Shown here: one piece after another, positions 15,786-24,985 of the stretch
How the letters are laid out: each line of letters starts with the position of its first letter
Numbering within the stretch: position 1 is the stretch's first letter
DNA from: Bryobacteraceae bacterium
GTDB lineage: Bacteria; Acidobacteriota; Terriglobia; Bryobacterales; Bryobacteraceae
Assembly (NCBI GenBank): GCA_025056455.1
Contig: JANWVY010000002.1
Location: 792,737-856,736 of the forward strand
Direction of reading: 5' to 3'
Length of the DNA: 64,000 bases
The notes under the pieces: generated by a model
Told to the model about the DNA's origin: nothing
What the model saw: only the letters and a program-made list of their open reading frames with translations
The model's database searches: none
Made by a program: the position numbers and the translations under genes

Positions 15786-16179
15786 GCTTCGCGCTCCAGC
15801 TAGCCCGAATTCGGGAATAAATTCCGCCGCGCGGGGCAAACTCGCCCTCCACTTCCATCCACCGCGGCTTGCAGGCTTTCACTAGATCATCCAGCACGCG
15901 GTTCACAACATTCTCCTGAAAGATCCCCAAATTCCGGTAGGCGAGCGTGTACATTTTGAGGGACTTCAATTCCAGGCACTGTTTATCAGGAACGTAGCGA
16001 ATCTTCAAGGTTCCGGAATCTGGCAGGCCCGTTTTTGGACAAACGGAAGTGAACTCAGGAATTTCGATTTCGATTTCGTAATTACGCGGATACTGGTTGG
16101 GCCAGGTGTCGACATCGGGCAGGGGGGAGGTGACTCCCGACGCGGCGTGCTCATCGGTGTACGCTTTTTGCTGTTTCAT
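15775..16179 (-). CDS. queF: NADPH-dependent preQ0 reductase QueF
   Basis: The 134-residue protein is of the short, single-domain QueF class. It shows the catalytic cysteine C47 in SVCPKTG, the nearby acid D54, and the QueF substrate motif ELKSLKMYTLAYRN around residues 70-83. It reduces 7-cyano-7-deazaguanine to preQ1 in queuosine biosynthesis. Its ATG overlaps the stop of the TIGR00300 gene by four bases (ATGA), and its end overlaps the methyltransferase gene, so all three are probably co-translated. No other queuosine genes are in the window. Confidence 0.95.
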   Translation of the reverse strand: MKQQKAYTDEHAASGVTSPLPDVDTWPNQYPRNYEIEIEIPEFTSVCPKTGLPDSGTLKIRYVPDKQCLELKSLKMYTLAYRNLGIFQENVVNRVLDDLVKACKPRWMEVEGEFAPRGGIYSRIRASWSAKRGK

Positions 16180-17408
16180 TCCTTCACCAGGGTGCGGGCG
16201 AGCAAGTCGAGAAAGAGCCCCACGTCAGTGACGACTCCAATTGCTTGCCCGGTGCCTCGATCACTCACTTTGGTGGCCACTGCGGGATTGATGTCCACGC
16301 AAATTATTTTGACCCAGCTTGGCGACATGTTACCCACGGCGATGGAGTGCAACATCGAGCCGAGACAAAGCACGACGCCGGCACCGCGTAATTGTTCGGC
16401 GTAAGCGTCTTGTGCGCGGTTCATGTCGGTGATGGTGTCCGGCAGCGGGCCATCGTCGCGCAGGCTGCCAGCGAGGACAAACGGTACGCCGGCTTTCACA
16501 CACTCGTACATAATGCCGCTGGTGAGCTTGCCAGAGCGCACTGCCGGCGCAATGCCCCCAGCATGATAGATGGCGTTGATGGCGCGCATGTGATTGCGGT
16601 GGCCATGTTCTTCTTGACGCCCGTCCGCCAGCCGCACGCCGAGCGAGGTGCCGAGCAGCGCCGCCTCGATGTCATGAACACCGAGAGCGTTGCCAGCGAG
16701 CAACGCTTGGACGTAACCGCCCCGAATGAGTTTCGCCAGATGCGGCGCTCCGCCCGTGTGTACAACCACGGGCCCTGCGACCACGATCACCTTTTGCTGG
16801 GCGGCTCGAGCCTGTTGGATGAGGGCTGCCGTTTGCCGCACCGCGGTTTCCACTTGCCGTTCGGAGGAAATGCCATTTGACATGAAAGCGAAGTGGAGAC
16901 GGTCGCGCTCCTTGGACTCGGGGACAACGCGGATGCCGCGCATGCCGACCAGGACGCGGTCGCCGGCTCGCAGGTCGCGTAACCGCCGGCAGAAGGCGCG
17001 ATTGCCTTCCAACACCACCATGGCGTCCATGCGCTGGTTTTCAACTTCAATCCACTGCGATTGCACTCGAACGAAGGTGCGATGGTTGGTTGTGGAGTAA
17101 AAATCCTCTGGAGCGCAGCAATTTTTCTCCACCACCTTCCACTCAGCGTCGCCTCCGTCCACCGGAGAACACCCCAGCCCAAGCAGCTGGGTCATCATGC
17201 GATCCATTTGCTGCTGGTTCGGAGCCTCGACTCGGAGCCGGAGCCGCGAGGGATCACTGTTGGTACGCCCAATATGAAACTGCTGGACTTCGAAGCGGCC
17301 TTCGTACTCGACGACAGTGTCGAAAATCCGCTCCAGGATATGACTATCGATCAGATGCCCTTCGGCTTCGAGAATTTCGTGGAAGGGCATCGCAGGAGAG
17401 GAACCCAT
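16176..17408 (-). CDS. TIGR00300/LOR-SDH family protein (ornithine-cyclodeaminase-like)
   Basis: The ATG at 17408 is chosen; an upstream in-frame TTG exists at 17417. The 410-residue protein matches the TIGR00300 family: an N-terminal LOR/SDH-type domain (FHEILEAEGHLIDSHILERI; CCAPEDFYSTTNHRT) and a C-terminal nucleotide-binding part (VVAGPVVVHTGGAP, AGNALGVHDIE, LHSIAVGNMSPS). Archaeal and cyanobacterial relatives (the AgrE C-terminal half and its archaeal homologues) have ornithine cyclodeaminase activity with NAD, making proline from ornithine. That activity is a reasonable inference here. It is the first gene of a coupled set with queF and a methyltransferase. Confidence 0.88.
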   Translation of the reverse strand: MGSSPAMPFHEILEAEGHLIDSHILERIFDTVVEYEGRFEVQQFHIGRTNSDPSRLRLRVEAPNQQQMDRMMTQLLGLGCSPVDGGDAEWKVVEKNCCAPEDFYSTTNHRTFVRVQSQWIEVENQRMDAMVVLEGNRAFCRRLRDLRAGDRVLVGMRGIRVVPESKERDRLHFAFMSNGISSERQVETAVRQTAALIQQARAAQQKVIVVAGPVVVHTGGAPHLAKLIRGGYVQALLAGNALGVHDIEAALLGTSLGVRLADGRQEEHGHRNHMRAINAIYHAGGIAPAVRSGKLTSGIMYECVKAGVPFVLAGSLRDDGPLPDTITDMNRAQDAYAEQLRGAGVVLCLGSMLHSIAVGNMSPSWVKIICVDINPAVATKVSDRGTGQAIGVVTDVGLFLDLLARTLVKE

Positions 17409-17422
17409 AGCAGCCAAGTTTT

Positions 17423-17431: not shown

Positions 17432-17562
17432 GCGGTTTGCTGGGGCGCAGAAGGCGGCGAGCGCTTCTGGTTTCGAGCAACGATGTGGCAGCTCCGCCCG
17501 GACGCCTGCGCCCGGCTACAGGTTTTCTGCATCCGGCAAAAACTTTTAGCATAAAGTGAGGT

Positions 17563-17916
17563 ATGGCTACCAAAAAACTGGACTGGAGTTACCACCGCCC
17601 GGGCTGAAAGACTTGCGCCCGCACGCAGGAGTTTCTTGCGTCTCACGATCTGTCCACCACCACCCAGGTGGATGCCAAGAAAAATGTTTTCAAGCTCAAA
17701 GATGCACTGGCCTTGCTCAAGGACGTCAATGAAGTGTACGCGGCCAAAGGCAAGAAGGTCGTGCACTACAACTTGAAAGAAGACAAACCTTCTGAGTCCG
17801 AACTGGCCGCGGTTCTTCTCGGGCCGACAGGCAACCTGCGCGCTCCCACCTTGCGCAAGGGCAAGACGCTGATTGTGGGCTTTGACGAGGAGATGTACCG
17901 GCAGTTACTGCTCTAA
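17563..17916 (+). CDS. Probable selenoprotein, ArsC/thioredoxin-fold with UxxC motif (in-frame TGA)
   Basis: Reading from ATG 17563 to TAA 17914-17916 gives 117 residues if the TGA at 17605-17607 is decoded as selenocysteine (residue 15). The redox site then reads HRPG-U-KTC, with Cys18 as resolving residue, the position where ArsC/Spx and thioredoxin-fold proteins carry the first Cys of CxxC. The rest is intact and family-like: VVHYNLKEDKPSESEL and the ArsC-type cis-proline segment NLRAPTLRKGKTLIVGF. A SECIS-like hairpin follows the UGA, and selA lies at 23663-24985. It is probably a small cytoplasmic oxidoreductase; its substrate (arsenate, peroxide or a disulfide) is unknown. Conventional gene calling would miss it or start it at 17668. 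A plain nonsense mutation is the alternative, but is less likely given the exact site. Confidence 0.85.
17623..17641 (+). promoter_or_regulatory. Bacterial SECIS-like hairpin downstream of the UGA
   Basis: ACGCA (17623-17627) pairs perfectly with TGCGT (17637-17641) around the loop GGAGTTTCT, which can close by one more G-U pair. The loop begins 20 bases after the UGA and starts with GG. Bacterial SECIS elements usually have the apical loop 16-37 bases from the UGA with a G in its first two positions, so this fits. An alternative hairpin, 17612-17617 with 17624-17629, shares bases with it. Confidence 0.6.
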
Positions 17917-18027: not shown

Positions 18028-19344
18028 CTAGCATCGAGCCATTCGGGGGAGTTGGTTGAGAACCTTACGCGCTGCCCCGATGGTTTCTGCGATCTCGTCT
18101 TGGTGGTGGACAACGGACGTGTACACACGCCCGTCCGGAAGCAGATAGACGCCTTCATCGAGCATTCCGCGGAGGAAGTGCTGGAGGAGCTCTTTGTTGT
18201 CGTAGCGAAGGTCTCGGTACTGGCGCAAGGGGCGGTGGGTAGTGAAGTGTAGGGCGAAGGCCGCGCCGAAACCTGTCGTTCTGAGGGCGATGCCGGCCTG
18301 CTCAGCGGCTTGTTCGAGACCCTGGCGTAACAGATTTCCCATGCGGTTAGCATGGTCGAGCGCCGCTCCGTGGCCAGCGGCTAACAGATCGAGAGTGGTT
18401 TTCGCGGCGGCCATGGCGAGGGGATTTCCATTAAAAGTGCCTCCAAAAGCGGCGCCCGACAACATCATTTCCATGACATCCTTCCGTCCAGCGAAGGCGC
18501 TCAAAACGACACCGCCTGCAATGGCCTTGCCGAAGGTGGCCAAATCGGGCGTTACGCCGAAATGTTGCTGCGCCCCGCCGAGGGCAATCCGGAATCCTGT
18601 GATGACCTCATCGAAAATGAGCAGCGAACCGTAGCGCCGGGTCAGTGATCGCAGTTCGGCCAGGAAGCCAGGTTCGGGCTCCAGACATCCGCTGTTGCAG
18701 AGGACGGGCTCTGTGATGACAGCGGCGATTTCTTCTCCCCAGCGCGAGAAAAGGTCTTCGAGGGCCGGCAGATCGTTCCAGGGCGCCACAACCACGTTCT
18801 CCAAGGAGTTGGGAGGCTGGCCCTTAGAATCGAGAGTTGGGCAGGGGGCATGGTCTGGCCCCATGCGCTCAGGGGAAGGCCGGTAGCTGATCAGCTCTTG
18901 ATCGTGCCAGCCGTGATAGTGCCCTTCGAAACGAAGAATACGGTTGCGCCCGGTGAAGGCGCGGGCTAGGCGGAAGACAGCCGCCACGGCCTCACTTCCG
19001 CTGCAGCAAAAGGCGCACAACTCGGCACAGGGAACGAGGGCGTGCAGCCGCTCAGCGACTTCCATTTCAAGCTCGTGCTGAGCGCCATAGTGATGGGGAC
19101 GAGCGGCTTGAAGCCGCAAAGTCTCGACCAGTTCCGGGTGCTTGTGGCCTAGAATAAGCGGTCCCCATCCCAGGGCGTAATCAATGTAGCCATTCCCATC
19201 CACATCCCACAGGCGCGGCCCAGCAGCGTCCTGAAAAAACAGAGGCACTGGTGCTTTGGCTCGGAACGGACTACTGACGCCACCGGTCAGGACTCGTGCG
19301 GCGCGTTGTAGGCGAGCGCGGGAACCAGCATACCGGTCAGGCAT
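18028..19344 (-). CDS. Class III aminotransferase, glutamate-1-semialdehyde aminomutase-like
   Basis: This 438-residue PLP enzyme has the GSA-aminomutase/class III layout: VLTGGVSSPFRA at the N-terminus, CCSGSEAV for phosphate binding, GHYHGWH, the cofactor aspartate D245 in IFDEVITGFR, the PLP lysine K273 in TFGKAIAGG, and FNGNPLAMAAA near the C-terminus. The overall similarity is to GSA-AM-like proteins, but several positions differ from housekeeping HemL (for instance CCSGSEA in place of NSGTEA), so it may be a side-branch aminotransferase and not the tetrapyrrole enzyme. It ends the minus-strand run behind the sialate O-acetylesterase, with 3 bases between them. Confidence 0.85.
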   Translation of the reverse strand: MPDRYAGSRARLQRAARVLTGGVSSPFRAKAPVPLFFQDAAGPRLWDVDGNGYIDYALGWGPLILGHKHPELVETLRLQAARPHHYGAQHELEMEVAERLHALVPCAELCAFCCSGSEAVAAVFRLARAFTGRNRILRFEGHYHGWHDQELISYRPSPERMGPDHAPCPTLDSKGQPPNSLENVVVAPWNDLPALEDLFSRWGEEIAAVITEPVLCNSGCLEPEPGFLAELRSLTRRYGSLLIFDEVITGFRIALGGAQQHFGVTPDLATFGKAIAGGVVLSAFAGRKDVMEMMLSGAAFGGTFNGNPLAMAAAKTTLDLLAAGHGAALDHANRMGNLLRQGLEQAAEQAGIALRTTGFGAAFALHFTTHRPLRQYRDLRYDNKELLQHFLRGMLDEGVYLLPDGRVYTSVVHHQDEIAETIGAARKVLNQLPRMARC

Positions 19345-23662: not shown

Positions 23663-24985
23663 TTACTCCATCAATTCACGCAGCCGCTGGCGCAAGGCAG
23701 ACTCGTCTTCTTCCGGCACCGTACGCAGGTCGAGCATCAACAGGCCTCCATCCGTAACAGCGATAACGGGGGGATCGCCGTGGCGCAACTGTCGTTCCCA
23801 TCGGGTCGTCGCAGGCCCGCCAATGGCAATCCGGAAGGTCGGCAAAAACTGCTGGGGCGTGGAACCGCCCCCGATGACGGAGTGAGCTGGCACCAGTTTC
23901 GCGTTCAGCCCGGGCAGCGAGTCAAGGAGTCTCTGGGCGCGCTGGCGAATTTCCTCGGCTGATAGACGGATCATACGCAACGCGGGCACTTCGGGCCAGC
24001 GTTCCCACAAGTAGTGGCGCAGGGTTGTTTCTAGGGCATGAAGAATCAGCTTGTCAACGCGGAAGGCGCGAAACATGGGGTTGCGGCGGAGGCGGTGGAC
24101 CAGCTCGCCGTCGCCGGCAATGATTCCCGCCTGCGGCCCCCCCAGCAGTTTATCGCCACTAAAGCTCACCAGATTGACGCCATCGCTGAGACAATCGACA
24201 GCGCTCGGCTCCTCGATCCCAAAGGGTTTGAGGTCGACAAGACAGCCACTGCCTAAATCCTCGTAGACGGGGATGCCATGCTGTTTTGCAAGCTCAACAA
24301 TCTCTTGGCGGGAAGGCTGGGCCGTAAAGCCTTCGATGCGAAAGTTGCTCGGATGAACCAGTAAGATCAACCGCGTTCGATCGCTGATGGCATTCCGGTA
24401 GTCTTCGATGCGGGTGCGATTCGTAGTGCCGACTTCGCGCAAGGTGACGCCAGCGCGCAACATGATATCTGGGATGCGGAAGCCATCGCCAATTTCAATG
24501 AGCTGACCGCGCGATACGATCACTTCCGCTCCTGCTGCTAGCTCGTTAAGAACTAAGAACACCGCGGCGGCGTTATTATTCACGACAATGGCGGGCCGGC
24601 CGAGCAACATCTCAAAAAGCGGGCCACAGTGTACGTCCCGCTTCCCGCGCTGGCCCGACTCTAAGTCGTATTCCAAATTAGAGTAGCTTCCGAGCGGGGA
24701 CAGCTCGGCCAGCGGCGCGCGGCCCAAGTTGGTGTGGAGTATCACACCGGTGGCGTTGATCACGGAACGCAGGGACGGCCTTCGTAGTTCCTCAACACGT
24801 TTGAAAATGGTGGCGATGATGGCTGCGCGCTCGACCGAGGAGCCTTGTCGAATCCTCTGGCGAGCCTCTGCGACGGCGGCGCGCACCACCGAGCGGAGCA
24901 AGATGCGTGGCGCATCAGGCATCCGCGGCTCAACCTCCCGCAGAAGCTCGTCCACGGAGGGAAGCTGCCGGAGAATCTCCTGCAT
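23663..24985 (-). CDS. selA: L-seryl-tRNA(Sec) selenium transferase SelA
   Basis: The 440-residue protein is full length for bacterial SelA. It has the N-terminal helical domain (LPSVDELLREVE), the RSVINATGVILHTNLGRAPL motif, VNNNAAAVFLVLNELA, REVGTTNRT and the PLP lysine K279 in SFSGDKLLGGPQAG. SelA converts seryl-tRNA(Sec) to selenocysteyl-tRNA(Sec) with selenophosphate, in a decameric ring. Its presence shows that the organism can make selenocysteine, which supports reading TGA as Sec at 17605. The other genes needed (selB, selC, selD) are not in this window. Its ATG directly abuts the PIG-L gene stop. Confidence 0.96.
   Translation of the reverse strand: MQEILRQLPSVDELLREVEPRMPDAPRILLRSVVRAAVAEARQRIRQGSSVERAAIIATIFKRVEELRRPSLRSVINATGVILHTNLGRAPLAELSPLGSYSNLEYDLESGQRGKRDVHCGPLFEMLLGRPAIVVNNNAAAVFLVLNELAAGAEVIVSRGQLIEIGDGFRIPDIMLRAGVTLREVGTTNRTRIEDYRNAISDRTRLILLVHPSNFRIEGFTAQPSRQEIVELAKQHGIPVYEDLGSGCLVDLKPFGIEEPSAVDCLSDGVNLVSFSGDKLLGGPQAGIIAGDGELVHRLRRNPMFRAFRVDKLILHALETTLRHYLWERWPEVPALRMIRLSAEEIRQRAQRLLDSLPGLNAKLVPAHSVIGGGSTPQQFLPTFRIAIGGPATTRWERQLRHGDPPVIAVTDGGLLMLDLRTVPEEDESALRQRLRELME

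Follow-up and report, generated by a model that had tools for sequence, protein, structure and literature searches.

The window (the whole stretch of DNA that was analysed, 64,000 nucleotides) contains a plus-strand frame that opens with ATG at 17563, meets a TGA at 17605-17607 after 14 codons and then stays open until TAA at 17914-17916. The preliminary description had noted this TGA as the only break between the ATG and the TAA, and the sequence bears this out. Another TGA (17557-17559) lies in frame as the second codon 5' of the ATG, and ATG 17563 is thus the only ATG ahead of the putatively recoded TGA. The locus comprises the following features:

16176-17417, minus strand: ornithine cyclodeaminase, the upstream neighbour (TIGR00300, 526.5 bits against a cut-off of 410.8)
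17563-17916, plus strand: probable selenoprotein gene of the NF041106 family, 117 amino acids with selenocysteine (Sec) as residue 15, stop codon TAA 17914-17916
17605-17607, plus strand: in-frame TGA read as Sec15 of U-K-T-C (aligned with TGA in 96 and with a Cys codon in 9 of 106 family rows)
17614-17616, plus strand: TGC for Cys18 at +3, the putative resolver (103 of 104 rows have Cys here)
17623-17641, plus strand: hairpin within the coding region resembling a bacterial SECIS element, 8 bp with a GUU loop, supported by synonymous shuffles and covariation
17839-17847, plus strand: R93-A94-P95, presumed cis-proline segment of a thioredoxin fold (invariant in the 21 rows of alignment A1, aligned with 'RRP' of Spx)
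18028-19344, minus strand: aminotransferase resembling glutamate-1-semialdehyde aminomutase (HemL-like), the downstream neighbour, below the cut-offs of its models
23663-24985, minus strand: selA, L-seryl-tRNA(Sec) selenium transferase (TIGR00474, 501.9 bits against 267.9)

Counting the TGA as one residue, the read-through product has 117 residues and includes U15-K-T-C18 and ...GPTGNLRAPTLRKG... Mechanical ORF finding in the same frame returns an 82-residue ORF from GTG 17668 to 17916; the gene supported here is one that would be shortened by standard calling. The purine-rich motif GAGG, which ends one base 5' of ATG 17563, is closer than the usual spacing of a ribosome-binding site. The downstream aminotransferase scores below both models that come nearest to it (379 bits against 527.3 for TIGR00713 hemL and 395.1 against 398 for NF000818), and may therefore use another substrate.

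Family membership and fold

The NCBIfam model NF041106 (ArsC_rel_Se_1, 'ArsC family (seleno)protein') aligns across the TGA with 146.7 bits against a cut-off of 85 (E 3.1e-43), covering residues 6-112 and profile positions 1-107 of 107, and the Pfam ArsC model PF03960, also spanning the TGA, gives 27.7 bits against a gathering score of 24, which places the protein in that superfamily. Because both matches run through the TGA, its two flanks are by this test parts of one protein, as had been supposed from their appearance. At the redox position, where NF041106 membership calls for Sec or Cys with Cys at +3, the product has U15-K-T-C18. No other match at E<=0.001 exists in the genome (4.98 Mb, 29 contigs, 98.94% complete). 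We consider the gene very probably a true selenoprotein gene of the NF041106 family, as judged from sequence comparison.

The structure predicted with the 21-row alignment A1 (mean pLDDT 88.4, pTM 0.79) begins with a strand at residues 5-11, followed by helix 1 at residues 16-27, so that residue 15 stands immediately before the helix. Foldseek found a moderate likeness to solved structures, best to Spx (6gho; E 1.5e-4, TM 0.55, rmsd 6.4) and to the ArsC-related 3gkx, and a profile search of solved structures agreed in ranking Spx first (4.3e-9). U15 is paired with Spx C10 and C18 with Spx C13, and the residues invariant in the 21 rows are Y10, R12, C/U15, G63, G87, G90, R93, A94, P95, G100 and G106. 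The alignment, the model and the structure matches together uphold the U-K-T-C motif, the RAP segment and the Spx/ArsC-like fold of the preliminary description. The protein is most likely an oxidoreductase of the thioredoxin/Spx fold in which Sec15 acts as the nucleophile and Cys18 as the resolving residue.

The superfamily match at 27.7 bits would also suit a true glutaredoxin-dependent arsenate reductase in which Sec replaces the catalytic Cys, and UxxS and UxxC selenoproteins are called 'arsenate reductase' or 'arsenate reductase-like' in the accessible passages of three papers (PMC2398784, PMC9312934, PMC13188914). Against this, the arsC equivalog model TIGR00014 was absent among the profile matches, which were listed to E 10. 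In plasmid ArsC three arginines build the arsenate site, whereas just two arginines, R12 and R93, are invariant in the 21 rows. Nor did the neighbourhood point to such a role: when ORFs of at least 90 residues were clustered over 20 NF041106 loci (7.7-16.4 kb), no widely common neighbour emerged, although the ORF finder was crude enough for a weak link to escape it and the clusters carried no annotation for arsenic genes. Only two clusters reached four loci, both restricted to L088-L091, so that no pathway can be read from the neighbourhood. We judge an arsenate reductase unlikely. As NF041106 occurs in two phyla with no widely common neighbour in the 20 loci, a biochemical assay is needed to establish function.

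The protein could alternatively be a regulator that, like Spx, binds RNA polymerase and is switched by a Sec-Cys pair, a reading favoured by the rank of Spx as closest solved relative in both profile and fold and by the pairing of U15 and C18 with its two cysteines. However, it reaches only 31.7 of the 75.05 bits needed for membership in TIGR01617 (Spx/MgsR) and 22.1 of the 123 bits for Spx PRK01655. The position aligned with Spx Gly52, which we take to be the contact with alpha-CTD, holds Gly in just 5 of 21 rows, and the four Spx residues directly before it have no counterpart. We regard a regulator of this kind as very unlikely and give little credence to its specific form, a selenium-dependent transcriptional redox switch with a Sec-Cys sensor in place of the Spx CxxC.

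Decoding of the TGA

The relatives of the gene bear on the TGA, which had been proposed to stand for the first redox cysteine. We gathered 106 rows, 37 from the window's phylum (the window included) and 69 from Planctomycetota, 11 of which score below the NF041106 cut-off of 85 bits (nine in the window's phylum, two in Planctomycetota). The residue aligned with the TGA is Sec, encoded by TGA, in 96 rows, Cys in nine and Asp in one, an outcome that agrees with decoding as Sec; 95 Sec and nine Cys rows were typed by script, and one Sec row (L134) and the Asp row (L128) by looser inspection. Among the 104 typed rows the motif is U..C in 94, C..C in nine and U..S in one, with Cys at +3 in all except the Sec row L036, where Ser replaces the resolving Cys. 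The Asp protein (L128, G443:C12) is a paralogue whose function may have changed, and its genome also holds a Sec form (L140).

The window's phylum is represented by 396 genomes, 83 of which match NF041106 at E<=0.001 and 28 of which exceed the family cut-off. One TGA is present in all 28 of these and in the next nine, down to E 1.0e-13 (37/37); beyond that, the matches are for the most part ArsC/Spx-like proteins with no stop, and some others bear a TGA. Planctomycetota, the phylum of L010, yielded 66 matching genomes out of 294 at E<=1e-12, 64 of them over the cut-off, and 10 of the 67 matched places were stop-free. On a 97-row tree, built without nine nearly identical rows from a single family group (L043-L046, L048-L052) and with L128 and L134 added by hand, the distribution of Sec and non-Sec forms requires at least six changes, whose direction the tree does not reveal. 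Starred inner branches number 40 of 94, and the window row is absent from every starred set that spans at most half the rows, for which reason we make no claim of transfer between phyla.

Nine weak NF041106 matches in the window's phylum also carry one in-frame TGA. The six that were fetched (L069-L074, from G230, G275, G291, G153, G229 and G042) make up a second group of ArsC/Spx-like UxxC proteins, in which an NLxRRP segment is present; each of their genomes has a selB match at E<=1e-89. When four were scanned, L069 (88.1 bits) and L074 (85.6) passed the Spx/MgsR cut-off of 75.05, and L070 and L072 failed it. These proteins may be Sec-containing relatives of Spx.

Translation might start 3' of the TGA, for example at GTG 17668, where mechanical calling in this frame places its ORF, and would then give an 82-residue protein lacking the redox motif. 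The residues ahead of the TGA are nevertheless conserved, with Arg at -3 in 102 and Tyr at -5 in 96 of 104 rows, which argues against a start codon beyond it; in the model they make up the first strand (residues 5-11), and the Cys forms, which need no recoding, likewise have this N-terminal region. This conservation speaks against a downstream start, which had been named as a refutation of the selenoprotein reading and which we find scarcely credible.

The segment 3' of the TGA can form an 8-bp hairpin 18-36 nucleotides beyond it, the score of which was matched by none of 200 synonymous shuffles. The same helix-length test gave p<=0.05 for 35 of 84 distinct Sec sequences and not for the other 49, compared with 2, 5, 7 and 3 of 84 for four downstream control stretches and none of the nine Cys rows. 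Contiguous stems of at least six pairs in the main registers occur in 61 of 95 Sec rows, a count inflated by near-identical rows of one group, and in none of the nine Cys rows; some of the 34 Sec rows with fewer than six pairs may form their hairpin in a different register. Among the 25 distinct rows in the window's register, pair 20-34 is G-C, T-A or C-G, and at pair 25-29 there are 18 rows with A-T and seven with G-C, the two sides changing together from GAG-TTT (or AAG-TTT) to GGG-TTC (or GGG-TAC) or the reverse. Selection of these rows by register favours pairing, and the informative part is the co-change at pair 25-29.

Folding energy separated the rows less well: the mean z was -1.15 for the 95 Sec rows and -0.22 for the nine Cys rows, and -0.12, -0.47, -0.62 and -0.12 for four control stretches taken from the first 60 of these Sec rows. 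We favoured the helix-length test for its better separation, a choice made after both results were known. For the window the synonymous-shuffle energy was unremarkable (z +0.06), and its 48-nucleotide stretch folds in isolation into a different structure from the 8-bp hairpin (z -0.09). Folding 37 nucleotides from 11 nucleotides past the start of the TGA yields the 8-bp hairpin as the minimum (-9.4 kcal/mol, z -0.91), and we suggest that a ribosome paused on the UGA would mask the 5' part of the alternative 48-nucleotide structure. An Rfam scan of the window found no family at its gathering score, a result of little weight because Rfam, to our knowledge, offers no general model of the bacterial SECIS. 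The hairpin probably helps to decode the UGA as Sec.

Bacterial selenoproteins require selA, selB, selC and selD. Besides selA, which lies within the window as had been reported, about 5.7 kb downstream of the selenoprotein gene, the search of the genome (G000) that had been proposed recovered the other three:

Contig C22, 753416-755254: selB (373.1 bits against a cut-off of 242.25)
Contig C11, 786305-787228: selD (L021; 373.1 bits against 125)
Contig C28, 44046-44136: selC, tRNA-Sec (79.3 bits against 47), called tRNA-SeC with anticodon TCA (UCA) by ARAGORN

A second selC candidate (L003), which scored exactly the tRNA-Sec cut-off of 47 bits, was rejected, ARAGORN calling it tRNA-Ser with anticodon TGA. 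The selD gene itself contains one in-frame TGA, and SelD of this genome may be a selenoprotein too.

Across the window's phylum selB exceeds its cut-off in 254 of 396 genomes. It is found at E<=1e-85 in 35 of the 37 genomes with a TGA form (Fisher p 1.6e-5; the weakest of the 35 at 4.4e-86, presence beyond E 1.7e-98 being taken from the genome table) and in 27 of the 28 with an over-cut-off member (Fisher p 5.6e-5), both p values being uncorrected for shared ancestry, with 14 of the 37 rows in a single family group (f48). The two TGA-form genomes lacking a strong selB match are G350 (820 contigs), with none at E<=1e-45, and G055 (370 contigs), with one at only 2.1e-47.

That the TGA is a mutated or misread Cys codon in an otherwise Cys-form gene is of negligible probability: Cys forms do exist in nine of the 106 rows, but TGA is the rule in 96 rows from many genomes, including independent assemblies of relatives, the remaining frame is intact, the genome has the Sec machinery and a covarying hairpin follows the TGA.

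Proposed chemistry and comparison with known systems

Taken jointly, the observations are very likely best explained by a genuine NF041106 selenoprotein in which UGA specifies Sec and which performs Sec-Cys redox chemistry on an ArsC/Spx fold, as far as sequence evidence allows. The UGA at 17605-17607 would be decoded as selenocysteine by the SelA, SelB, SelC and SelD of the genome, and the product would take up the thioredoxin fold in its ArsC/Spx variant. Judged by analogy with this fold, the selenolate of Sec15, poised before helix 1, would attack an oxidised or disulfide-like substrate, Cys18 would resolve the adduct through an Se-S bond, and thioredoxin, glutaredoxin or another dithiol of the cell would reset the Sec15-Cys18 pair. 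The 96 Sec, nine Cys and one Asp relatives offer a set with which the contribution of Sec in an ArsC/Spx fold can be tested.

Spx, known from structures of Bacillus, Staphylococcus and Streptococcus, is the closest solved protein in both fold and sequence, and its CxxC aligns with the UxxC; the window protein differs from it in falling below the Spx family cut-offs and in not keeping the residue at the alpha-CTD contact. With ArsC arsenate reductases of the glutaredoxin type it has the Pfam ArsC superfamily in common, but it is set apart from them by the lack of a listed TIGR00014 match, by its UxxC motif and by having no apparent arginine triad.

ArsC-like selenoproteins were already counted in a 2006 survey (PMC1794560), which in the accessible passage credits Acidobacteria with four selenoproteins of three families that it leaves unnamed there. 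The 2008 GOS survey (PMC2398784) lists, in its accessible part, 42 sequences of a UxxC 'Arsenate reductase 2' and 77 of a UxxS 'Arsenate reductase (ArsC) 1', and a 2022 review (PMC9312934) likewise has an entry for an arsenate reductase-like UxxC selenoprotein in the portion available. The corresponding passage of a 2026 review (PMC13188914) names an 'Arsenate reductase-like protein' with UxxC and NF041106 and points to its reference 61, identifiable from the order of the reference list as the GOS survey. Both 'Arsenate reductase 2' and the 2026 entry are, as described in these passages, ArsC-fold UxxC selenoproteins like the window protein; the domain label that the GOS survey gives to 'Arsenate reductase 2' is cd03032, and its likeness to the window protein is one of description. 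Our literature search, run mostly outside subscription journals and on partial texts, returned no report of the NF041106 family for Acidobacteria.

The suggestion that this acidobacterial form might be new did not hold, given the curated model, the 2026 listing in its accessible text, and the 28 of 396 and 64 of 294 genomes over the family cut-off. So far as our literature search shows, the present analysis adds the tally over two phyla, the Cys and Asp replacements and the covarying hairpin. The closest known system is NF041106 itself, with which the window protein shares the whole-length match, the U-x-x-C motif and the GPTGNLRAP segment and from which it shows no difference of kind, the other 96 rows of the tree being at most 59% identical to it. 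We conclude that the family is already known, as its NCBIfam model and its listing in the accessible part of PMC13188914 attest, and that the window gene adds a member and a correct annotation rather than a new family.
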